This document shows, one piece after another, positions 1-15,695 of a stretch of DNA of 32,333 nucleotides. The position numbers and the translations under genes are program-made. The number at the start of each line of letters is the position of its first letter. The stretch's first letter is position 1. Under the pieces are notes generated by a model. It saw only the letters and a list, made by a program, of their open reading frames with translations, was not told where the DNA came from and ran no database searches. The stretch covers positions 1-32,333 of the IMG/VR virus record IMGVR_UViG_3300034060_000831. One strand, 5' to 3'. Source of the DNA: a virus.

Positions 1-486
1 AATAGCTTTGTTAAACCATTTATCATTTGTTTCTATTTTTGTATTATAACTATATACACCATCTGGTATAGGAAGATATTCATATGCTTTAGTGTAGTCT
101 TTTACATTTTGCAAGATCTCATCTTGATAGTTATAAGAAAATGGATATTCTATTATATATGGTTGTGTAATTCCATAGTAGGAATTATATAATTGTATGT
201 TAGTTAAATGTCTCCATAAACAAGCTGTTGTTGTTTGGGTAAACACTGCATCTGCAAAATCAGAAATAGTATATGATTCTAAACGAAATGATTTTTTTAT
301 ATTACACGCTCCTGTTGATTCAAGATTTAATATAGTTACATCATCATTTACAGTAAATGTAGTTCCTTTGATAAGAGTTTTTTTAGGCACATCAGTTGCT
401 ATCACATTCCCAAAATTATCAGTGATGGTAAATGGTCCAGCAATTACTCCAGCTCTTGTTAATTTTACAATTATAGTCTTTGACAT
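1..486 (-). CDS. Partial tail/fibre-associated protein with the shared N-terminal phage domain
   Basis: The gene starts with ATG at 484-486, four bases after the stop of the giant tail gene, and stays open for 162 codons to the left edge, so its C-terminus is missing. Its first 62 residues resemble the N-terminal domain of the proteins at 10095-11021, 11029-11706 and 11738-12364. Shared points are an aliphatic strand, then AGPF at residues 16-19, a Leu-x-x-Gly, an acidic-Thr-x-Ile strand and STGxC near residues 56-60. The part after residue 75 is rich in Tyr and aromatic residues, with PYIIEYPFSYNY around residues 108-119, and has no poly-Thr linker in the visible part. It follows the giant tail gene in the same operon, so a tail-tip or tail-fibre role is likely. 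Function is inferred from the shared domain and the position only. Confidence 0.75.
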   Translation of the reverse strand, partial: MSKTIIVKLTRAGVIAGPFTITDNFGNVIATDVPKKTLIKGTTFTVNDDVTILNLESTGACNIKKSFRLESYTISDFADAVFTQTTTACLWRHLTNIQLYNSYYGITQPYIIEYPFSYNYQDEILQNVKDYTKAYEYLPIPDGVYSYNTKIETNDKWFNKAI

Positions 487-489
487 AAC

Positions 490-3400
490 TTAAGGGGTTG
501 TTGTTGTGGTTGTGGTTGTTATATTAGCATTGTCAGTTATAGAACTTGGAACACAAGTTACTATTTGTGCAGCTGATATAGGAAGCACTTCTATAGAACT
601 TGTTTCTACTAATTCATAAGGAGAAATTCCTCCTATAATATATCTTGTACCATCTGCTTCTACAACAAATATACTACAATCACATTCATAAATAGACGTA
701 GGAGCGATTGCCCCTATGTTCAAATCTAATTCTATCACACCTGTAGCATAATCATATTGTGTTATATAGTTGTCTCCTGATATAGTATCTGTATTAATAA
801 CTAACAATTTACCACCAGTTGTATATAACATATTACCTATAGCAGTTCTATCAGTTTGTAAACTAAATTGAACTGTAGCAGTAAATGCTGGAGGATTTAC
901 ATTACAATCAAGAACTAATTCTACAACATCTTGTGGAGAAACAGAATCATCTATTGCAACTAGTGTCGTATCATTTAATGCAACTATTCCTGAAGACGTT
1001 GTAAATCCTGCTGGGAATGGTATTGCTGTATTAAATGTTGCACTAAATGGACTCAATGTAATATCCCACATTAAGAATTCAGTAGTTACACTCCATAAGT
1101 AATTGCTTGTCATAGCTATTCCATATGTAGAACTAAAGTTAGGTACATTTAATGTTGTCATAGTTTCAGTTAAAGGAAGAGTTTGAGTACTGTTTTGATT
1201 TAAATAATGTACAGTAGTTGATGTATTAAACAATATTCCACAGCACTCATCAATACTTGGTACTAGTGTAGTAGTAGTATCCACTGTTTCACATTCACAA
1301 TTAACTATTTCTACAACATATCCATCAACCACATTAACTACGCAATTATAGTTTTCACTAGGATTAGTCCAACTTTGTGACATGAAATACCAACCATCAC
1401 TAAGAACTGTACAATCTGTTGAACTAGTAGCATTGTCATAGATTAATTGTCCAACTTCTACAAACTCCACATAATTTTCTAAAGTTGCTCCAAAATTATA
1501 TGGATTTACATAAAGAATCTCTAATGTAAGATCTGAGCTAGTAGTATTTTTTGCTAAAGCTAATGCAGCACATGCGTCTTCAGCACTTGATGTTGAATCA
1601 ACTGTAGGATTTCCAGTAACAGTATATCCTGAATAAAATAAAAATATAGGTAAATTTGAAGGTCTTGCACACACAGTAGTAGTTGTTGGTGGTGGAATTG
1701 TTATAATTGCATCTCCTGATAGTTCACAAGATGTTTCAAAAATCACTCCTACTAACTCACAAGACAATGTTGTATTAGCAGTTGTAGTTGTAGAAGAAGT
1801 AGAAGAAGTAGTTGGTTTTACTGGGGGAATTTTAAATTGATTTCCAACTAATGCTTGAAACTCTCCTTCAATATCTGTACAACATCCATTGATACCAGAA
1901 TAAAAGAAATTGTTCTCAGCTATATACCAGTTAGGTATATAACTATGGAATGATATCCAAGATTTAAGATTTATATGGTATGACAGTGTCCATGATTTGT
2001 TACAGAAATATTCTGGATCTGTTAAAAAAACTTGTGTTTTAAATGAAACATTATTTATTATTTCTTCTACATAGAATTGTCTAGTAACAGGATCATATTT
2101 TACATCTGGATCTATTGGAATATAATCAAGTTTAGTGATTATAACTCTATCATATTTGGAATCATATACACCATGAAGTCCTACTCCTGTAAAATTATTA
2201 TCTACATCAACTCCAGGAATTACAATTCTTTCATTATTAACTATCACTTCTTTATCAGGGAAGTATCTAAGTATTTCAAATGCTAAGTGGTCTGTAAAGA
2301 ATCTATTCATTCCAGAACCAAATGCTGAAAGATCTTCAGCTTGATTACCAGAAATTAAAAACACTTGTCCTCTTTTAGCATCAACTGTTATCTGTCCTTG
2401 TGGGATCTTCAATAAGAACTTGTTCTGACTTCCTACATATCCAAGATCTGTCTCAGCAAAATCAATTGGAGGAGAAGATGCAAACAAAGTTGGGTTACCA
2501 ATATAAGCAGCTTGTGGATTACTTGTATTGATTGTAAGCATTGTATTGTATAACAATGATTTGTTTTCAAATCTAGCTAATACACTCTTATTTTGAATAC
2601 CATCAAGAGAAACTAATTTACCATAGTTCTGAGGGAAATCAAACAATGATATAGGACGATAGATTAACCAGTTGTTCACTCTTACATCAGCATTCTGATT
2701 TTGTGTATCAGAATAGATTGCTCTAAATGGAAAACGTGTATAACATAACTGTGTTGTCCAATCTGGAGGAAGATGTGTAAATGTATTTTCCTTATTCTGT
2801 TTAGAGAAAGTTACGTTGTAAGTGTACGTATTATCATTAGCAATTGATACGTAATCTTCCTGTACCCAATCATCTGGAATACTTGTAGACACATGTGGCC
2901 AGAAGTCACCTTCTTTATTATTAAATGCTTGTCTCAGATCTGTATTATAAGAACTCTCACAATAGAAGTTAGGAACACCATAAGCAAACAAATAGAAATA
3001 TCCATCATAATATGTTCTTAGTGAACCAGCTATTCCACCAGTACCTACTGCAGGTGCAGGAAATAAAGAAGGATCATTAGGACAATCAAAGTAATGAGCT
3101 TTGTATGAAATAATATTTGATAACAATTTATCTTCTGCTAGATAATTGTCTAATATAGATCTAGCAGAATGCCAATAAGTTGGAAAACCAACATTACCAA
3201 TCTCATCATAGAATACATCACTATCATCAGGAGCATTAACTCTATTATCTATGAAGAATGGAAGTTTTGTTTTAAATGCAAATCTAGATATAAATGTATC
3301 TCCACCAAAGAGTGTAACTATTTGATCAGATGTTGTAGTTGGTCTTTGGAATCCTGTATCAACTGTATCATATGAATATATCTGACCCCATTGATTAACA

Positions 3401-6400
3401 AAGTCATTCTTCATAGAAGCATAATATGACACTACAGATATGTCTTGTTCTTTTCCTGGAGTAGAGCAAGCGTTAGTTGCACCTATAGTTAATCTAGAAT
3501 AATCAGTAATTATACTTGTACCTGATGCATCTAATAGAGAATTTGTTTTACTTGGAAATGGTAATCCAGAAACTGAAATTCCATCTCTATCTTCGATTGT
3601 TTTAATATATACAGAAGACTCTCTTTGAAAGTTATTTATATTATATTTATCTCCTACGTTTTGTACTCCTGGAATAAGATATTGAGTAAGGTCAATTTGT
3701 CTTTGTTTAATACCAAGACCATTTTTAATATCTGCATTATAATTATAATCAGCTATTGAGTTAAATGAATACGCATAGTTCTTTCTTGTAATACCATTTA
3801 CATATATAGTTAAATATGCCTGATATGCTGTAAACATAGCAGTGGCATTAAAGTTAGTAGTTATACTAGCTATATTAGCAGAACTATTTAAAGCATCTTC
3901 TTGAGCTTCTTTAGAAAGTAATTTATAATTAGCATTATTTTTAACTTGTACAAAATGTGCTTTTCCTTTTCCAAACATTACATTTTCAAGCTTAAGGACA
4001 TTTCCTAAGAAAGGTTGTCCAAAAGATGTCTCTGGAGAATTAAACACTTGTCTATATCCAGGTTTTTCAAATCCTTCTAAAGGAAGTGCTTCTGTACAAG
4101 GTAAACTAGTTCTTCTACCTCTTTGAAAGAAATTTTCACCTGAAAATGGATTAACACTACCTACATGCCAACCATTGCTATCAGTTTGATTATTTATTCT
4201 TTCTGGCAGTTGTGCTTCTGGTAATATATCATAAGGCATTGTTTCTGATGCATATGCTATTTGAGTTGCATTATTTGTAATATATACATTGGCACCAACT
4301 TCTACTAACATATACATATTAGCTATGTTCCAACCAGCACCATTTGCTCCAAAAATCCAACGATCTTGATATTCACTTACAACAGAATTATTATTGTAAA
4401 CCCAAGGGCTTTCCCAACTAGCTCTATATCCATCAGCAGTAGTATACCAAGGAACTCTAACTATATCAAAATTTCCAGGAACAATTGTAGCTCTTCCACT
4501 TTTAATAATAGGTTTAGCTGCAGAACATATTTCATAATAACTTTGACCTCCTGTTGTTTCTTCTACCACATTTAATTGTTTTGGTAAATATGTAGAACAA
4601 TCTGTATATTCAATTATACCAGTTTCAAAAGCAAGAATTAACCAAGCTTCACATTGTAATGTAAATGCATTGTTTGTACTATTAATAAAGGGATCTCCAT
4701 CAAGGTCATTGTATGGATAATTTGGATAGTAAAAAGTTTGTTCTTCTTTTACATATTCTCCAACGTTTCTAAGAATACCTTTAGCTATAATAGATTTGTT
4801 TGTTCCTCTGTCTCCTCTTATTATTTTAAATCCAGCTATCTCAGATTTTTGACTATCTGTTAAATTAGAACTTGCAATCAATTGATTAATTTGTTGTACA
4901 TCAACTCTAACACCTATAGGAAACACATCATCATTTCCCATCACCATTGATGTAGGACCTGCAAATAATTTGGTTTCAACAATAGGACTTACAAGTACAT
5001 CTGGAAACTTATGATGTCTAATAGGTTTATTAGCAAGATCTCCCCAAATATCTATATTACAAGGGTAAACGTCTTCTGATTCCCAATAAGCAAATTCTCC
5101 ATATTGATGTGCTTTAGCATTTCCAATATCAGGACTATCTCCTGGACCAAGTACAGATGCTGTATTATATATCTTCCAATAAGGAGCACTTATTCCATCT
5201 CCTATGAAATCAGGATTTGTATTAGGTACATCTGGATATGCCTCATTAGAATTTCTTTCTCTACCAGGAATGTGGAAACCATCTGTTTGTTTTCCATTCT
5301 TTAATAGGAACACAATCTCAAATGCATACACCTCATCACGTAGATACCCACGTAGGTTTGTAGCATTAAGTTCATCAGAATAGTTTTCATTAGCAGGAAG
5401 TCTATATGTTTCCCAATTCAATGTTATTTGAGAAGCTATGTTTTGATAATTAATTCTATCTATAGATGTAATATTGTCCCATACAAGTACATCTTCTACA
5501 GCTGTTAAGTCTTGTGCTATTTCATAATAAGGATATTTTTGAAATATATCAAATATAGTTAACCTTGTTTGTGTATCATTTTGACCTGTGTATATAATAT
5601 CTTTATTTACTTGATCAATAAAATATGTTCCTACTAACTCAACAGAAGGAATATTGTTTACTGTTTTTATAACAGCAAGATTGAAATACTGAAACTGTCC
5701 TGTAGCATCTAGATTAGTAATGTTAACAACAATAGATTTACCCACTTCATAATTAAAATTAGGAGTGGTAATACTTATATCAGCGATAGGCGTTGGATTA
5801 GTAACTGAGTAATAAGAAGTGTATTCATTACCTGATGCGTCACAATACTGTATAGCAAACTGATATGTACCAGCTGTAAGGTTACCACCATTTCTAACAT
5901 CAGTTATTGCTAACTCAGGAATATTAAAATTAGGTTGTAGTTTTAATTGATTACAGTCAACTTGATTACTTTCTATAGGATAGCAAAGTGTAGAACCAGG
6001 TTGTAGTATATAAGGGATGTTATTTATATCTAAATATCTTCTTGGGTTTAATCCATCTGTCCAATATATCTCTGTAGTACAATTTGTAATCTTATGTACT
6101 GCTTTTCTGATTGGGTATTGCATATTGAATGCAAGACAAGAAGCATTAATTAGTATTCTATAAACACAATCGTTATTATCCATATATCCTATTTGAGACT
6201 CATTTGTTTCAGGATTAACAATAAAAAATATATGTTTAGTTTGCTCAACTATAAAATGTTTTCCAATAAGAATAAAACCACTAGGAAAAACTACGCATGA
6301 TTCATTACCTGGTTCATTTTGATAATTAATTGCAGAAGCATCAAAGTTTTCAATAGACGCATTTAATGCATATGTTAACTGTCCCTTAGCTACTTGACTA

Positions 6401-6507
6401 ACAGTGTTATCTAAATTTAAACCTGCAGCTGCAACATTATACTCTTGTTTAATGTTACTTTGATCACCACCAAGTATCTTTTTAATTTTATCTATTTCGT
6501 CTGCCAT
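490..6507 (-). CDS. Giant tail protein, muzzle/tail-stabilisation type, with poly-Thr-joined C-terminal modules
   Basis: This 2005-residue protein is the largest gene in the window and sits directly after the ring-type gene, where crAss-like phages carry the protein that forms the distal tail muzzle. Residues 1 to about 1560 form one long beta-rich body rich in Asn, Tyr and Thr with no linker, as expected for that family. The protein then changes character. A Thr/Ser linker lies near residue 1565, a short Cys segment follows, then a roughly 125-residue module (about 1613-1739) that also occurs in the proteins at 13449-15695 and 16880-17959. The last 250 residues have repeated strand-Asp-strand units reminiscent of a beta-propeller. 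The protein ends in eight Thr and a Pro. The assignment of the first 1560 residues rests on length and synteny. The extension appears to be acquired and could face the outside of the tail. Confidence 0.75.
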   Translation of the reverse strand: MADEIDKIKKILGGDQSNIKQEYNVAAAGLNLDNTVSQVAKGQLTYALNASIENFDASAINYQNEPGNESCVVFPSGFILIGKHFIVEQTKHIFFIVNPETNESQIGYMDNNDCVYRILINASCLAFNMQYPIRKAVHKITNCTTEIYWTDGLNPRRYLDINNIPYILQPGSTLCYPIESNQVDCNQLKLQPNFNIPELAITDVRNGGNLTAGTYQFAIQYCDASGNEYTSYYSVTNPTPIADISITTPNFNYEVGKSIVVNITNLDATGQFQYFNLAVIKTVNNIPSVELVGTYFIDQVNKDIIYTGQNDTQTRLTIFDIFQKYPYYEIAQDLTAVEDVLVWDNITSIDRINYQNIASQITLNWETYRLPANENYSDELNATNLRGYLRDEVYAFEIVFLLKNGKQTDGFHIPGRERNSNEAYPDVPNTNPDFIGDGISAPYWKIYNTASVLGPGDSPDIGNAKAHQYGEFAYWESEDVYPCNIDIWGDLANKPIRHHKFPDVLVSPIVETKLFAGPTSMVMGNDDVFPIGVRVDVQQINQLIASSNLTDSQKSEIAGFKIIRGDRGTNKSIIAKGILRNVGEYVKEEQTFYYPNYPYNDLDGDPFINSTNNAFTLQCEAWLILAFETGIIEYTDCSTYLPKQLNVVEETTGGQSYYEICSAAKPIIKSGRATIVPGNFDIVRVPWYTTADGYRASWESPWVYNNNSVVSEYQDRWIFGANGAGWNIANMYMLVEVGANVYITNNATQIAYASETMPYDILPEAQLPERINNQTDSNGWHVGSVNPFSGENFFQRGRRTSLPCTEALPLEGFEKPGYRQVFNSPETSFGQPFLGNVLKLENVMFGKGKAHFVQVKNNANYKLLSKEAQEDALNSSANIASITTNFNATAMFTAYQAYLTIYVNGITRKNYAYSFNSIADYNYNADIKNGLGIKQRQIDLTQYLIPGVQNVGDKYNINNFQRESSVYIKTIEDRDGISVSGLPFPSKTNSLLDASGTSIITDYSRLTIGATNACSTPGKEQDISVVSYYASMKNDFVNQWGQIYSYDTVDTGFQRPTTTSDQIVTLFGGDTFISRFAFKTKLPFFIDNRVNAPDDSDVFYDEIGNVGFPTYWHSARSILDNYLAEDKLLSNIISYKAHYFDCPNDPSLFPAPAVGTGGIAGSLRTYYDGYFYLFAYGVPNFYCESSYNTDLRQAFNNKEGDFWPHVSTSIPDDWVQEDYVSIANDNTYTYNVTFSKQNKENTFTHLPPDWTTQLCYTRFPFRAIYSDTQNQNADVRVNNWLIYRPISLFDFPQNYGKLVSLDGIQNKSVLARFENKSLLYNTMLTINTSNPQAAYIGNPTLFASSPPIDFAETDLGYVGSQNKFLLKIPQGQITVDAKRGQVFLISGNQAEDLSAFGSGMNRFFTDHLAFEILRYFPDKEVIVNNERIVIPGVDVDNNFTGVGLHGVYDSKYDRVIITKLDYIPIDPDVKYDPVTRQFYVEEIINNVSFKTQVFLTDPEYFCNKSWTLSYHINLKSWISFHSYIPNWYIAENNFFYSGINGCCTDIEGEFQALVGNQFKIPPVKPTTSSTSSTTTTANTTLSCELVGVIFETSCELSGDAIITIPPPTTTTVCARPSNLPIFLFYSGYTVTGNPTVDSTSSAEDACAALALAKNTTSSDLTLEILYVNPYNFGATLENYVEFVEVGQLIYDNATSSTDCTVLSDGWYFMSQSWTNPSENYNCVVNVVDGYVVEIVNCECETVDTTTTLVPSIDECCGILFNTSTTVHYLNQNSTQTLPLTETMTTLNVPNFSSTYGIAMTSNYLWSVTTEFLMWDITLSPFSATFNTAIPFPAGFTTSSGIVALNDTTLVAIDDSVSPQDVVELVLDCNVNPPAFTATVQFSLQTDRTAIGNMLYTTGGKLLVINTDTISGDNYITQYDYATGVIELDLNIGAIAPTSIYECDCSIFVVEADGTRYIIGGISPYELVETSSIEVLPISAAQIVTCVPSSITDNANITTTTTTTTP

Positions 6508-10020: not shown

Positions 10021-10053
10021 GAAACAAAAACTCCCCAAGAAGATCTTGAGGAG
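10021..10053 (-). terminator. Rho-independent terminator after the fibre gene block
   Basis: A stem of ten bases with one mismatch (10031-10040 with 10044-10053, CTCCTCAAGA pairing with TCTTGGGGAG on the minus strand) and a three-base loop is followed on the minus strand by TTTTTGTTTC (10030-10021). It lies 42 bases after the stop of the gene at 10095-11021 and ends the fibre block. Confidence 0.8.
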
Positions 10054-10094: not shown

Positions 10095-11021
10095 TTAAGT
10101 ACAAAGTGTTACTACATTAACAAATCCAAGACCATCAATAACAACAACATATGAAGGATCTCCTAGAGTAGCTGTAGATATTTGTAGTCTATATGTCTCA
10201 CCTCCCCCATTAAAATAACCAGATCCTGGAGAGTTAATAACTCTATCACCAGATGTAACAATTGCTGGGTTTGGGTTTTGATGTTGAAGTTTACAAGATT
10301 GATCTAAATCTAATATACAACCATCTCCTGCATATGGAGTAGTCTCACCATTTTGTGTTCTATAATATAAAAATCCTGCATTGGTGGTTGTGGTTGTTGT
10401 GGTTGTTATACAACAGTTTGATTCTGAAGGACCTATCGTTCCAGGATCTCCTGCACCTTCTTCTACACTACCTGTTTTAGCACAAATTTCTACTGGAGTT
10501 TCAGTAAACACTGTAATAGATGCAGGTTCATCTGTGAAACAATCTATATAGTCAAATTCTGTAGCACCTATAAAAGGAAAATCAAGTATAGAAGATAAAA
10601 TATAACAAGTACACGCTGATGTAGTAGTAGTTGTAGTTGTACTGCTACTAGTTGATGTAGATGTAGATGTACTTGTGCTTGTACTTGTTGATGTACTAGT
10701 ACTTGTTGAACTACTACTAGTTGTAGTGGTAGTTGGAACAGCTGTGGTACTAGTACTTGTAGTGGTAGATGTGCTACTAGTTGTTGTAGTGGTAGGAAGT
10801 ACATTCACTTGTACATTAACAAAGTTTGTACATACACCTACAGACTGCACTCTAATTGTAGTTGTTCCATTAGGTACGTTTGTAGCTGTATATCCAACAA
10901 TCAAAGCTGAAGCTGATATATTTGTTGCAAATGGAACAACATATCCATCTGTGTTTGAATAAAGATTAAAAGGACCTGCGTCCCCACCAGGTGGTAAAAC
11001 CAATGTTATTAATACTGTCAT
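10095..11021 (-). CDS. Modular fibre/adhesin-type protein: shared N-domain, Thr/Ser linker, Cys-rich module, C-terminal domain
   Basis: This 308-residue protein has four parts. Residues 1-76 are the shared N-terminal domain (DAGPFNLYSNTDGY near 14-27, SVGVCTNF near 60-67), also seen in the next two upstream genes and in the partial gene at the left edge. Residues 77-133 are almost only Thr and Ser. Residues 134-203 form a Cys-rich module (CTCY ... YIDC ... EIC ... CC). After eight Thr, a last domain (about 212-308) has alternating strands and ends VVTLCT. There is no signal peptide or membrane segment, so it probably enters the particle by assembly. The N-domain is the likely virion anchor and the distal modules the binding part. 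The gene is the last of the block and is followed by a terminator. Confidence 0.8.
   Translation of the reverse strand: MTVLITLVLPPGGDAGPFNLYSNTDGYVVPFATNISASALIVGYTATNVPNGTTTIRVQSVGVCTNFVNVQVNVLPTTTTTSSTSTTTSTSTTAVPTTTTTSSSSTSTSTSTSTSTSTSTSTSTSSSTTTTTTTSACTCYILSSILDFPFIGATEFDYIDCFTDEPASITVFTETPVEICAKTGSVEEGAGDPGTIGPSESNCCITTTTTTTTNAGFLYYRTQNGETTPYAGDGCILDLDQSCKLQHQNPNPAIVTSGDRVINSPGSGYFNGGGETYRLQISTATLGDPSYVVVIDGLGFVNVVTLCT
10623..10793 (-). repeat. Thr/Ser linker-coding repeat
   Basis: About 57 codons of ACN, TCN and AGY encode only Thr and Ser, apart from one Ala-Val-Pro. The codons vary among synonyms (ACA, ACT, ACC, AGT, TCA), so it is not a clean microsatellite. The linker joins the shared N-domain to the Cys-rich module. 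Confidence 0.85.
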
Positions 11022-11028
11022 GGTTTAT

Positions 11029-11706
11029 TTATAAAGGAGTTGTTGATGATGTAGTAGTTGTTGATGGACAAACATCTGTTGGAAAATTTAATCCTGTTGG
11101 GTTAGCTAAAACAGTTTGGTAATAACCAACACCAATTTCATTAATAGCATAAGCTCTCCAATAGTAATTAGTATTAGGAGTTAAACCTGTAACGTTAATA
11201 GTTGAAACACCTGTAACAGTTGGTCCAATAAATATAGAATCAGCAATAGTTGGGTTTCCAGTTGTGTTATAGCATATTCCTCGTTGAGTTAAAGTACCAC
11301 CACCATCTGTGAAACTAGAAGTAACTGTTAGACTTGTACAAGTATCTGGACCTGGAAAACCTAGTGAAGATCCCAAAGGTAAAATAACAGTTGTGGTGGT
11401 TGTAGTTGTTGGTGTTGATGTAGTGCTAGTAGTGGTTGTAGTTGAACTACTTGTACTACTAGAACTAGTGGTTGTAGTCGTTGGTTCTTCTACAGGAATT
11501 TCAATATAATTTGTACACAATCCATTATTTGATCTCACTCTAATAGTTGTTGTGAAATCAGGAACAAGAGATGATGGGTATCCTGCAAGCAATGACGCTT
11601 TAGGTACTCCTGATTCAAAAGCAGAAATGTATCCATCAAGATTTGAATAAAGATCAAAAGGACCAGAGTCTGTTCCTGCTATACTTAATGTTATTAATAC
11701 TGTCAT
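11029..11706 (-). CDS. Modular fibre/adhesin-type protein with fibronectin III-like domain
   Basis: This 225-residue protein is a tandem paralogue of its neighbours. Residues 1-75 are the shared N-domain (SGPFDLYSNLDGY near 14-26, NGLCTNYIEI near 61-70). Residues 76-107 are a Thr/Ser linker. Residues 108-213 read like a fibronectin type III-like domain of the kind common in Bacteroidota surface proteins, with RGICYNTTGNPTIAD (142-156) and VTGLTPNTNYYWRAYAINE (172-190). The protein ends in a short Thr/Ser tail, STTTTSSTTPL, with no domain after it. It lies seven bases upstream of the next paralogue. The domain could mimic or bind host surface proteins, or bind carbohydrate. The module reading is by motif; no structure was predicted. 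Confidence 0.8.
   Translation of the reverse strand: MTVLITLSIAGTDSGPFDLYSNLDGYISAFESGVPKASLLAGYPSSLVPDFTTTIRVRSNNGLCTNYIEIPVEEPTTTTTSSSSTSSSTTTTTSTTSTPTTTTTTTVILPLGSSLGFPGPDTCTSLTVTSSFTDGGGTLTQRGICYNTTGNPTIADSIFIGPTVTGVSTINVTGLTPNTNYYWRAYAINEIGVGYYQTVLANPTGLNFPTDVCPSTTTTSSTTPL
11386..11481 (-). repeat. Thr/Ser linker-coding repeat
   Basis: About 32 codons encode only Thr and Ser plus one Pro, between the shared N-domain and the fibronectin-like domain. It is the shortest of the six main linkers. Confidence 0.85.
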
Positions 11707-11737
11707 ATTATTTGGTTTATATTATTATTATTATTTA

Positions 11738-12364
11738 TTATTCACAAAATCCACTTACTCCAAAATTAGACCCATCCCAATAACGATATATACTTACATC
11801 AGTATACCATCCTGCAGCAGCTAAGGCAGGTCCTGTAAGATTTAAATATAATATAGTACAGGTTGCAAATGATGGTGTGTTCATATAAACACCAATAGCT
11901 GCACTACTTGTATCACAAGCAGTTCCTTCTGAACTATTTTGGTAAAGAGGTATTGGAGTTCTTGCTGAACTAGTTGTTGTTGTAGTAGTGGTTGGAGCCA
12001 AAGTGGTTGTGGTTGTGGTTGTAGTTGAACTACTAGTGCTAGTAGTGCTAGTAGTAGTTGATGTACTAGTTGATGTAGAAGTGCTTGTACTAGTACTAGT
12101 ACTTGTTGAAGAACTGCTACTAGTTGTAGTGGTTGTTGGAGTAAGTAAATTTATACTTAAATTAATAAAGTTTGTACACAATCCAGTAGACATCACTCTA
12201 ATTGTTGTAGCATCATTAGGTACAGTTGAACTGTATCCAGCTTGCAATGCAGCAGCAGACACATTCGTTGCAAATGGAACTGTGTACCCATCTGAATCTG
12301 AATAAAGATTGAAAGGTCCTGCATCACCTCCAGGAGGAATAACTAATGTTGTTACTATTATCAT
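11738..12364 (-). CDS. Modular fibre/adhesin-type protein, third copy of the shared N-domain
   Basis: This 208-residue protein has the shared N-domain at residues 1-76 (DAGPFNLYSDSDGYTVPFAT near 14-33, STGLCTNF near 59-66), closest in sequence to the gene at 10095-11021. A Thr/Ser linker covers residues 77-133. The C-terminal 75 residues are short, with ACDTSSAA near 149-156 and AAAGWYTD near 182-189. They look like a reduced form of the roughly 105-residue module in the proteins at 13449-15695 and 16880-17959. The protein ends FGVSGFCE. No signal peptide is seen. The function is inferred as a surface-exposed fibre or decoration protein. It is followed 31 bases later by its paralogue, so tandem duplication is the simplest origin. 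Confidence 0.78.
   Translation of the reverse strand: MIIVTTLVIPPGGDAGPFNLYSDSDGYTVPFATNVSAAALQAGYSSTVPNDATTIRVMSTGLCTNFINLSINLLTPTTTTTSSSSSTSTSTSTSTSTSTSTSTTTSTTSTSSSTTTTTTTTLAPTTTTTTTSSARTPIPLYQNSSEGTACDTSSAAIGVYMNTPSFATCTILYLNLTGPALAAAGWYTDVSIYRYWDGSNFGVSGFCE
11966..12136 (-). repeat. Thr/Ser linker-coding repeat
   Basis: About 57 codons for Thr and Ser, interrupted only by Leu-Ala-Pro near the end. The core alternates Ser-Thr ten or more times, as in the linkers of the neighbouring genes. Confidence 0.85.
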
Positions 12365-12398: not shown

Positions 12399-13439
12399 CT
12401 ACTCAGGTTCAATACACGCAAGATTAACAATTAGTATTCTAACTATATCTGTAACAAGAATAGAAGTTGAATTAAATGAATATGTTCCAGTTCCAGTAAG
12501 ATTTATTTGCTGTATATACACATTATTTACATAAAGTGACATACAGTTAGTAAATGCACTTGACATCGTAACGTTAACATTAATAGGTGTAGGTATATCT
12601 GAATGACTTCCTGTTGTTGTATCTCCTGGAAGAGCAACTGGATTAGATTGAATAATTATAGTACCAGCTATTGATGTAACAGTATTTACTGTAAGATTTG
12701 TTGACTCATTTTCAACAATTAAATTTCCACTTGGCAGTGTAGTGGATGTAGTAGTAGTTGTTGATGATGTAGGTGGAGGTGATGTACAACATTGACTTGT
12801 TTTTGTTACTGTTGAACCTTCTAGTGGGGCAGAATCATCTCTAAATAATACAGGTGTACTACCTGATTGTACACATTTTGTAAAAGGACGAGTACCTAAA
12901 ATAAAGTCAAGAGTAGGAACACCATTACAGTTTATATATGTAAGATTAAGTCCTGCCTCACTATCTGCTAGAGTTGCCTGAACCTCCCAAATATAACATG
13001 GACATGTAGTGGTAGTGGTAGTTGTAGAACTACTAGTAGACGTAGATGTACTTGTGCTTGTACTGGTGCTAGTTGAAGAACTGCTAGTTGTAGTAGTTGT
13101 AGAATCTGGAACTTGATTAACACTTCCTGTAAAATTACATGTAGGTAATTCAGTAGCAGTTATTGTAAAATCACAAATAGGACAACATATAAAGATTTGA
13201 TCATTTATATTCTCTATCTCTTCTCCTATAATCATTAAGTCCTCAGTAATGTTCATTACTTCTTCTGAAAGAATATTTACACTATTTATAGCAGAACATA
13301 TAACATTGTCAAACTTAGTAAGGATCGTATTTAGATCATCACATGCTTTTACATCTGTACAAGGAAGTGGAGTGCTATCATATGAGACAGCACTCGTTCC
13401 TATTATTGTTGTGTTATTTGTTTGAGAACAATTAGCCAT
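12399..13439 (-). CDS. Modular fibre-type protein with coiled-coil-like N-terminus and Cys-rich module
   Basis: This 346-residue protein starts with a Cys-rich and then helical N-terminus. The motif CDDLNTILTKFDNVIC at residues 33-48 matches CDTLNVILQKIDEIIC in the next upstream gene, and the following 35 residues have a heptad-like pattern that suggests a trimeric coiled coil. A Thr/Ser linker lies at 113-145. A Cys-rich module follows (CPCYIW at 146-151, YINC at 168-171, KC near 189, CC at 217-218), then a second short linker and a beta-rich C-terminal domain of about 110 residues (LIVENESTNLTVN, ending ACIEPE). It lies nine bases downstream of the 748-residue gene. A homotrimeric fibre or spike is the best reading; the receptor is unknown. 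Confidence 0.75.
   Translation of the reverse strand: MANCSQTNNTTIIGTSAVSYDSTPLPCTDVKACDDLNTILTKFDNVICSAINSVNILSEEVMNITEDLMIIGEEIENINDQIFICCPICDFTITATELPTCNFTGSVNQVPDSTTTTTSSSSTSTSTSTSTSTSTSSSTTTTTTTCPCYIWEVQATLADSEAGLNLTYINCNGVPTLDFILGTRPFTKCVQSGSTPVLFRDDSAPLEGSTVTKTSQCCTSPPPTSSTTTTTSTTLPSGNLIVENESTNLTVNTVTSIAGTIIIQSNPVALPGDTTTGSHSDIPTPINVNVTMSSAFTNCMSLYVNNVYIQQINLTGTGTYSFNSTSILVTDIVRILIVNLACIEPE
13005..13103 (-). repeat. Thr/Ser linker-coding repeat
   Basis: About 33 codons encoding Thr and Ser only, between the helical N-terminus and the Cys-rich module of the 346-residue protein. Confidence 0.85.
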
Positions 13440-13448
13440 GTTTTATAT

Positions 13449-15695
13449 TTATATTGTTGTCGTAGTGGTAGTTGTTGTTGCTGGTGTTCCACAAGGTGTA
13501 GTAGTTGCATTTAATACATAACTACCTGATGTTGGTGTAGGATTCCAAACAGGAGTTGTGCCTGGATAAACACATATAATTCCTGAACTATTTGTTATAT
13601 CTATTGCAGGAATAACTGTAAATACATTATCACAATTTGTATATTCTAAACCTGAATCATTAGGTCCTGAAGCTGCCCAATCCCATAGTTTACATGTTAG
13701 TAAAGTAGTTGTAGTGGTTGTGGTTGGACAAGGATGTGCAGCTACACAATCAACACAATCAGTGTAGATAGTAGGATCTCCTAATGTTATTGTTGGAGAT
13801 GCTACAGAAGTGTTTGCTGCTCTATAGCAATTTCCATCTGTGGCATATACAGTATCACCTAGAACAGTATCGTAAGGTAGTTCTATAAAGTAACGTTCTG
13901 ACCCATCGCAACAAGTAGGTTCTACTTCCCATACAATATCATTACAAGATATAGAATTAAGTACTGCCACTTTAGGACCTAATACTAATGAACTATCAAC
14001 TATACATCCTGTACTAGTAGTACCAGGGAATGGAATTGTTGCTCCAACTGGAAGACCTGTATCACAATCTATACCTGACCAATCACATTCTCCAAGACCT
14101 GAACCAGGACCTGTAGTTTCTAGTTCATATATTGAACAACTGAGTGTAGTAGTGGTAGTAGTTGTAGTACAAGCAGGAAACGCTACTATCACACTATTTA
14201 TGATTTGAACTACAGTCCATGTACCACCATAATTAATTTGGAAATATCCATCCTGTCCTGTAAGACCTAAAGTACATCCAGTGCTATTTGCATAAGCAGT
14301 ATCACCTATTCCTGGAGATGCAACATTCCAGTATACTGATACAGATGAAGTTATTGTACAAGTAGCAGCTTGTAAACATTCAATGGCTGCACAAGCATCA
14401 ACTAAGAAACTATTTGAATCAGGAACAGTACTTGTACCATTTACCACTGTTATATTAAATGGATGAGAAGTGGCAGGGTTACAAGTGGTTGTTGTAGTAG
14501 TGGTAGGTTCAGCTGTGGTGGTGGTTGTTGTTGTAGAACTAGAACTTGTTGTTGTACTACTTGTACTAGTGCTTGTTGAAGTGCTTGTAGACGTACTAGT
14601 TGAACTAGAACTTGTTGTTGTTGTAGTTGGTGGTATTGTGGTTGTTGTAGTAGTCGTAGGTACACATTGTGAATTATTTGTACAAAGAGTGACTCCTCCT
14701 ACTATATCACCAGTCCCATCAGCAATAACACTGCCTAATTGAGCACATACATACGTAGTGTTGTTTGTAATAGTTATAGTTTGAGCAACTCCATTTACAT
14801 CTGTCCAATAAAATTTCACTTTACCCTCTGCAGTAAGTGAATAGCAATATGCTGGAACAGCAGTTGTAGTTGTAGTTGTAGTTATTACAGCACAATCTAA
14901 ATCACTTGTACAAAGAGCAGTTCCTCCATCTATGTCAGGAAGACCTGAACCACTTGTAGCAATACTATTTAATTGAGCACATACATATATAGTGGTATTA
15001 TTAATACTTGCAGATTGAGGATCTCCATTTACGTCTGTCCAATAGAATATCACTTTACCATTTGCAGTAAGCGTATAACAATATGTTGGGATAGGTGCTG
15101 TTGTAGTAGTTGTGGTTGTAGGTCCAGCACAACAAGTAAGTAAGTTAATGAAACTTACATTTCCTATTCTAATAACACCATATGTATTATCAACACATAT
15201 TGACTGAACAACAGTTGTTGCAGTTTGTGTAACTACTTGAGTTGATCCACAAGGAACATATGTCACATTTCCAGGATTTACAGATGGTCCAACTAATCTA
15301 TATGTAGTACAAGTACAAGGAGATGTAGTGGTGGTAGTAGTTGTAGCATTACAACATAGATCTAATGTATTATTAATATTAATTATACTATTATTAATCT
15401 GCATCACTTGATTATTAATGTTCCCAACTTGAATGTTTAACACATTAATTTGAGTAAGTAGGTTACATATAATCTCATCAATCTTTTGTAATATCACGTT
15501 AAGTGTATCACATGGTTCAGCTATAATACAATCCAATACAGGACCATTATAGAGCACATTGCTAGATAGAATTACATTAGTTCCACATTGACTTTGTCCA
15601 CAACCAGTATTAGGAAGTGTAGAAGTGCATCCACAAGGAGTATTTAAAACTACGTCTGTGCAGCAAGGATTAACTGGTAAAAAAGGATATGCCAT
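13449..15695 (-). CDS. Multi-module fibre protein with six or more Cys-rich/beta modules on poly-Thr linkers
   Basis: This 748-residue protein is the most complex mosaic of the block. Residues 1-116 hold many Cys and a helical stretch (CDTLNVILQKIDEIIC at 62-77, then Asn/Ile heptads up to 112) that suggests trimerisation. After poly-Thr come a Cys-rich module (127-189), two tandem copies of another (204-268 and 282-345), a 59-residue Thr/Ser linker (346-404), a module with VDACAA and GDTAYAN (405-509), a further Cys-rich module (518-595) with an extra segment to 656, and a last one (666-734). The chain ends in a bare run of Thr and Ile. Each junction is poly-Thr. I read it as beads on extended, possibly glycosylated linkers, which would suit a long flexible fibre or head decoration. 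No enzymatic motif is seen. Confidence 0.78.
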   Translation of the reverse strand: MAYPFLPVNPCCTDVVLNTPCGCTSTLPNTGCGQSQCGTNVILSSNVLYNGPVLDCIIAEPCDTLNVILQKIDEIICNLLTQINVLNIQVGNINNQVMQINNSIININNTLDLCCNATTTTTTTSPCTCTTYRLVGPSVNPGNVTYVPCGSTQVVTQTATTVVQSICVDNTYGVIRIGNVSFINLLTCCAGPTTTTTTTAPIPTYCYTLTANGKVIFYWTDVNGDPQSASINNTTIYVCAQLNSIATSGSGLPDIDGGTALCTSDLDCAVITTTTTTTAVPAYCYSLTAEGKVKFYWTDVNGVAQTITITNNTTYVCAQLGSVIADGTGDIVGGVTLCTNNSQCVPTTTTTTTIPPTTTTTSSSSTSTSTSTSTSTSTSSTTTSSSSTTTTTTTAEPTTTTTTTCNPATSHPFNITVVNGTSTVPDSNSFLVDACAAIECLQAATCTITSSVSVYWNVASPGIGDTAYANSTGCTLGLTGQDGYFQINYGGTWTVVQIINSVIVAFPACTTTTTTTTLSCSIYELETTGPGSGLGECDWSGIDCDTGLPVGATIPFPGTTSTGCIVDSSLVLGPKVAVLNSISCNDIVWEVEPTCCDGSERYFIELPYDTVLGDTVYATDGNCYRAANTSVASPTITLGDPTIYTDCVDCVAAHPCPTTTTTTTLLTCKLWDWAASGPNDSGLEYTNCDNVFTVIPAIDITNSSGIICVYPGTTPVWNPTPTSGSYVLNATTTPCGTPATTTTTTTTI
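14484..14660 (-). repeat. Thr/Ser linker-coding repeat
   Basis: About 59 codons for Thr and Ser with two Pro-containing breaks (IPP and AEP). It separates the tandem module pair from the VDACAA module. Confidence 0.85.
14661..15086 (-). repeat. Tandem duplication of a 65-residue Cys module within one gene
   Basis: Two copies, 15086-14892 and 14852-14661, encode nearly the same sequence: CYTLTANGKVIFYWTDVNG against CYSLTAEGKVKFYWTDVNG, then INNTTIYVCAQLNS against ITNNTTYVCAQLGS, then a Cys-x5-Cys end. The copies are separated by a short poly-Thr linker. The DNA is also clearly similar, so the duplication is recent. Confidence 0.85.

Follow-up and report, generated by a model that had tools for sequence, protein, structure and literature searches.

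Adjacent crassvirus genes with a constant anchor domain and variable tips: probable tail-borne adhesins and reuse of the anchor in a split muzzle

Three adjacent genes of a crassvirus, here called A, B and C, probably encode tail-borne accessory adhesins (we put the probability of this reading at roughly two in three), in which a constant docking anchor would present a swappable host-contact tip; the same anchor also heads one half of a split muzzle. The genes lie on a 32,333-base IMG/VR virus fragment (record IMGVR_UViG_3300034060_000831, positions 1 to 32,333), which was analysed as a whole and is referred to as the window. The crassviruses rank with the most abundant phages known, and their host choice and the evolution of their tail tips are poorly understood. 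If correct, the proposed reading would describe a route of diversification without retroelements, based on a constant plug, a flexible arm and interchangeable tips in parallel genes, as well as a highly conserved tail protein made of two chains with co-varying cysteines. The anchor domain would moreover offer a way to find the host-contact tips of many uncultured phages, and would provide an assembly model that can be tested directly.

The structural cluster and the shared anchor domain

The minus strand of the window carries a crassvirus structural cluster comprising terminase, portal, major capsid, rings and muzzle. Capsid, muzzle and ring proteins were recognised by Pfam matches (PF23898, Crassvirus major capsid protein, E=6e-28; PF25731, muzzle, E=3e-32; PF24228, E=2e-11; PF25702, E=1e-16), TerL and portal by PHROG matches. 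With capsid, muzzle and ring proteins found in one gene order, the window belongs to the Crassvirales, and its tail plan is like that of phi-crAss001, to which the muzzle, rings and capsid protein recognised here correspond (PMC10172136; PF25731, PF25729). By terminase, the nearest named relative (40%) is Leptolyngbya phage Lbo-JY46 (L311, PP438436.1), which was recorded from a cyanobacterium, has an intact crassvirus-like muzzle and a large tRNA cluster, and is a candidate crass-like phage outside the Bacteroidota. In nearly all relatives, the usual order is fibre, coiled-coil genes, array (the tandem anchor genes, one to four across relatives), exonuclease, Ring 2, Ring 1 and muzzle. The array of the window consists of the following features.

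10031..10053, minus strand: terminator-like hairpin of 10 pairs with a T-run, closing the array and preceding the exonuclease gene
10095-11021, minus strand: gene A, open reading frame adjoining B
10797..11021, minus strand: anchor of gene A, residues 1-75, from the alignment; AlphaFold2 mean pLDDT 91
10098..10796, minus strand: remainder of gene A, with T/S linker, Cys module, second T-linker and orphan beta-rich tip
10410-10619, minus strand: Cys module of gene A, predicted small all-beta domain, pLDDT 93.5
10098-10382, minus strand: orphan beta-rich tip of gene A
11029-11706, minus strand: gene B, open reading frame
11482..11706, minus strand: anchor of gene B, from the alignment with A and C
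11032..11481, minus strand: T/S linker and fibronectin-III-like tip of gene B, with fn3 match at 11119-11307
11738-12364, minus strand: gene C, open reading frame adjoining B
12137..12364, minus strand: anchor of gene C, from the alignment with A and B
11741..12136, minus strand: T/S linker and orphan tip of gene C, the 75-residue tip being 11741-11965

The initial annotation had described three adjacent genes that share an N-terminal domain of about 75 residues with AGPF or SGPF, Asp/Gly-Tyr and C-T-N motifs, followed by Thr/Ser linkers and unrelated C-termini, and this description was borne out by the alignments. The N-termini (75-78 residues) can be aligned end to end at 51-68% identity (39/79 identical columns for A/B, 53/79 for A/C and 41/80 for B/C), with scores of 186, 283 and 157, respectively (none of 500 shuffles exceeded 31), and the GPF, DGY and CTN columns are invariant. 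From about residue 76 onwards, each protein continues with a Thr/Ser linker and an unrelated C-terminus, namely a Cys module plus beta-rich tip in A and a 75-residue tip in C. The tip of B had been called fibronectin-like; it does show a weak resemblance to fn3 (PF00041, E=0.0012) but with 19.5 bits misses the curated Pfam cut-off of 25, and is thus fn3-like at best. This tip recurs in two relatives (L013 and L059), while no relatives of the C tip were found among the fetched loci. A further, divergent copy of the anchor, the fourth in the window, was found at the head of the open reading frame at 1-486.

AlphaFold2 modelling with a 38-row alignment yielded one small beta fold for the anchor (pLDDT 91, pTM 0.80), that is, a single confident fold for residues 1-75 and not three different ones. 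PDB searches with the anchor fold and with the Cys module gave no significant match, the Ig and FN3 resemblances of the anchor being sub-significant. In BFVD, the anchor shares its fold with uncharacterised proteins of Virus NIOZ-UU157 (E 2.6e-7 to 6e-4), a marine metagenomic virus. These matches include 77-aa proteins and a 287-aa protein, the latter sized like the C-terminal piece of the muzzle (see below); neither a function nor an arrangement of the NIOZ-UU157 proteins is described in the sources found. Among the named phages of the collection the anchor had no match, and none was confirmed in bacterial genomes, which were searched for a link to the host. Three IMG/VR scans, on the other hand, yielded 218 distinct anchor-domain proteins, 214 from arrays and 4 muzzle pieces. 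The anchor starts beyond residue 5 in only 4 of the 218, and 207 of the 214 array anchors contain exactly one Cys.

Tip repertoire and exchange

The initial annotation had proposed to tabulate the tips attached to the domain in related phages. On the 214 distinct array proteins they fall into about 60 sequence clusters (66 module clusters when muzzle pieces are counted), with Fib_succ_major, DUF285, BspA-type LRR, DUF5122 beta-propeller and, weakly, Lcl_C as curated domains. The 3′ end is complete in 207 array proteins, of which 157 have a tip, 37 stop after a linker or short tail and another 13 have no more than the anchor; since about a quarter of the array proteins are thus tipless, some anchors may serve another role. 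Tips are also shared between array anchors and two coiled-coil T-linker genes, which form a second tandem family upstream of the array.

12399..13439, minus strand: second family, member 1, with T-linkers and tips after a coiled-coil N-terminus that ends in CC
13449..15695, minus strand: second family, member 2, with coiled-coil N-terminus and several T-linked Cys and other modules

The two members align with a local score of 160 (maximum of shuffles 66), and their common coiled-coil N-terminus contains Cys.

For the comparison of tips between relatives, the identity of the neighbouring exonuclease was used as yardstick of relatedness. At 96-100% exonuclease identity, identical ones excluded, the tips on orthologous anchors were unrelated in 23 cases and the same in 7; in 5 further cases only one of the two anchors had a tip. 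Close relatives thus keep orthologous anchors at 80-97% identity below unrelated tips, in accordance with the earlier description of a constant anchor and a variable tip in parallel genes. The C anchor illustrates this well, as it is conserved at 90-94% identity in L006, L012, L014, L015 and L059, none of which has the C tip of the window; the same tip is therefore not present in all relatives. The window, L006, L013 and L015 differ from one another chiefly in their tips. The clearest case of exchange is the pair L018/L019, whose backbones are 97% identical upstream and 99% downstream of the array. Here, the C and A tips are swapped reciprocally: compared across the exchanged anchors, tip identity is 98.1% and 91.3%, and the anchors, compared in place, reach 97.7-100% (cross-anchor value 72%). 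Repeat-driven misassembly is an unlikely cause of such swaps, since the longest exact run shared by paralogues is 23 nt. Assembly chimeras were also dismissed as their source, identical arrays having been recovered from several independent metagenomes (e.g. L025-L029).

These data bear directly on the simplest alternative, namely plain duplication followed by fast divergence of the C-termini, in which domain exchange would play no part. The anchors clearly are duplicated genes, but 11 pairs of proteins share a tip at at least 85% identity on anchors that are less than 80% identical, and unrelated tips sit on anchors of 90-97% identity. Judged by these alignments, plain duplication appears already contradicted by the swaps and is scarcely credible.

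The swaps might also be the work of a switch operated on demand, with tips stored in parallel and brought into use by programmed recombination at one active site or by amber readthrough at the joint of linker and tip. Besides the reciprocal exchange in L018/L019, the existence of tipless stubs would fit such a system, as would two in-frame TAG stops located exactly at the linker-tip joint (L019, 6403-6405; L295, 7268-7270). These stops occupy Tyr and Trp positions of intact relatives, so that only anchor and linker precede the stop, and the tip beyond them is otherwise open. An alternative code or amber readthrough was nevertheless rejected, as the relatives use TAG, if seldom, as a normal stop (19 TAG, 923 TAA and 32 TGA), and no amber tRNA was found among the few phage tRNAs, which were detected in only two of four records and were all Thr and Met. 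A retroelement- or recombinase-driven switch was discarded as well: searches of relatives' genomes returned no reverse transcriptase (PF00078, 0/20) and no tyrosine or serine recombinases (PF00589 and PF00239, 0/18), and the array of the window has no long inverted repeats but only two short overlapping palindromes. Moreover, every gene has its own start, which fits better with parallel display and exchange over evolutionary time than with a switch. Altogether, on-demand switching appears very unlikely. Of the receptor-switching system envisaged in the initial annotation, the anchor-tip layout is thus retained together with tip exchange, whereas the switch itself lacks its machinery in the relatives' genomes; the tips would still be expected to bind receptors.

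The split muzzle and its cysteines

The crassvirus muzzle is described as a highly conserved, hexameric protein of the tail end (PMC10172136). Phi-crAss001, Fpv1, csAssE-Sib and Lbo-JY46 each have it as a single chain, whereas in the window it is encoded by two genes, the cut bearing tips and anchors, and hence departs from the single-chain form of the crassvirus muzzle protein.

1..486, minus strand: muzzle C-terminal piece, encoded separately and truncated at the window edge, with the anchor at about 271-486
304-306 and 220-222, minus strand: Cys of the anchor and edge Cys of 'ACLW', respectively, in the C-terminal piece
490..6507, minus strand: muzzle upstream piece (PF25731, E=3e-32), with core end 'NNFFYSGINGCC', CC at about 1879-1884, followed by T-linked tips of its own

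The stretch at 490-1878 is a long extension past the cut with T-linkers and possibly a propeller-like stretch, and it varies among relatives. Full-length homologues of the open reading frame at 1-486 have about 290 aa and, beyond the anchor, match only the last approximately 200 residues of intact muzzles. Accordingly, the C-terminal piece aligns to positions 1588-1781 of the 1783 of PHROG 15100, and it also matches the muzzles of Lbo-JY46, Fpv1 and csAssE-Sib. The cut falls in one short loop, which reads 'FYSWIYGNNNIWKH' in the intact Fpv1 muzzle and is divided into 'NNFFYSGINGCC...' and '...[AGS]CLWRH' in split muzzles. Mapped on Fpv1, the split site lies just before PF25729; mapping it onto the phi-crAss001 muzzle structure in the PDB gave no usable match.

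An anchor-headed muzzle piece is present in 29 of the first 30 relatives; the exception is G008 (with L067), whose muzzle extends towards the end of its contig. The muzzle is split in 13 and intact in 7 of 20 more distant long contigs, and the anchor domain occurs in 13/13 split genomes versus 0/10 unsplit ones (the 7 contigs and three named phages). In two of the 13, the domain is found on the muzzle piece only and an array is absent, suggesting that use of the anchor in the muzzle is the older one. The idea that the anchor is a relic of an internal muzzle domain was not retained, as a profile search at maximum sensitivity gave 0 matches in the three unsplit muzzles. The split does not simply track terminase similarity, so the muzzle type may have been exchanged or may have arisen more than once: L416/G046 (67% terminase identity to the window) and L351/G034 (53%) are both intact, L377 and L368 (53-54%) are both split.

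The tie between anchor and split is also relevant to the possibility that the array proteins decorate head or tail, with an Ig-like anchor and sticky beta domains that would provide weak, non-specific adhesion to glycans of mucus or biofilm and not select the host. A small beta-fold anchor with its sub-significant Ig/FN3 resemblances would suit this role, many tips are small beta modules, and crassvirus capsids likewise bear fibres (PMC10172136). However, the genes reside among those for fibre, rings and muzzle and at times within the muzzle split itself, with anchor genes between the two muzzle halves in L309 and L070/L274, and tips turn over quickly on constant anchors. Decoration is therefore considered unlikely, and the reading as tail-borne adhesins is preferred.

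Cysteines at the cut were compared in 36 split genomes in which the upstream edge, the downstream edge and the muzzle-piece anchor were all readable (the state of L336 was taken from direct reading of its sequence). The upstream/downstream/anchor pattern was CC/C/C in 28 genomes, -C/-/C in 7 and devoid of all of them in 1 (L437), and intact muzzles have no cysteines at either edge position. That the three sites vary together suggests that the muzzle halves are stapled by disulphides; as the changes may amount to only two or three evolutionary events, this covariation is a strong hint and not proof. The first upstream Cys of CC would bond the Cys of '[AGS]CxW' and the second the Cys of the muzzle-piece anchor. 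Array anchors do not just rely on the muzzle Cys, since some of them lack a Cys of their own (L450, L455 and L458) and since L448 has kept it in the array anchor while both of its muzzle pieces are without theirs.

Proposed assembly and known systems

In the assembly that we propose, the small beta-domain anchor would dock on the tail, the Thr/Ser arm would act as a flexible spacer and the tip would contact the host surface, with one to four anchor genes expressed and displayed in parallel. Recombination would trade tips among anchors and among phages, the linker serving as a neutral joint. In the muzzle, the chain is cut in a loop: T-linked tips terminate the upstream half and the anchor heads the downstream half, both halves probably being held together by disulphides. 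It is tempting to speculate that this lineage cut its muzzle at one surface loop and replaced the chain link by disulphides, one plug domain both rejoining the muzzle and mounting exchangeable tips; this scenario is plausible, but we advance it tentatively and would not yet favour it.

No description of the anchor domain, its arrays or the split muzzle was found in the open-access papers searched. As a gene layout, adjacent paralogues with constant N- and variable C-termini correspond to known multi-gene receptor-binding systems, to which the array may be compared at the sequence level. Ackermannviridae encode several tailspikes (TSP1-4) with conserved N-termini and variable receptor-binding C-termini, which form a branched complex on one and the same virion, and recombination between neighbouring tailspike genes has been reported (PMC11414711). 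The array resembles these in its adjacent paralogues with conserved N-terminus and variable C-termini. It differs in that its anchor has 75 residues and no known relative, its arms are Thr/Ser-rich, its tips are small and diverse, and one half of a split muzzle carries the anchor as well. Within the same virus order, tail fibres of Zeta crAss-like phages are diversified by diversity-generating retroelements (PMC12386605); host-contact domains would be diversified in both cases, but in the arrays whole tips are exchanged and not point-mutated, in line with the lack of reverse transcriptase in the 20 relatives' genomes searched. More generally, domain mosaicism is concentrated in phage receptor-binding proteins (PMC10684548). 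Fragments common to otherwise unrelated tail proteins are found here as well, although here they belong to a dedicated array of several genes built on one anchor, with exchange also among genes of one genome. As a minor observation, the intact muzzle of Fpv1 (L312, C-terminal 420 residues) seems by eye to have a Cys-type insertion like the tip Cys module, located in another loop.
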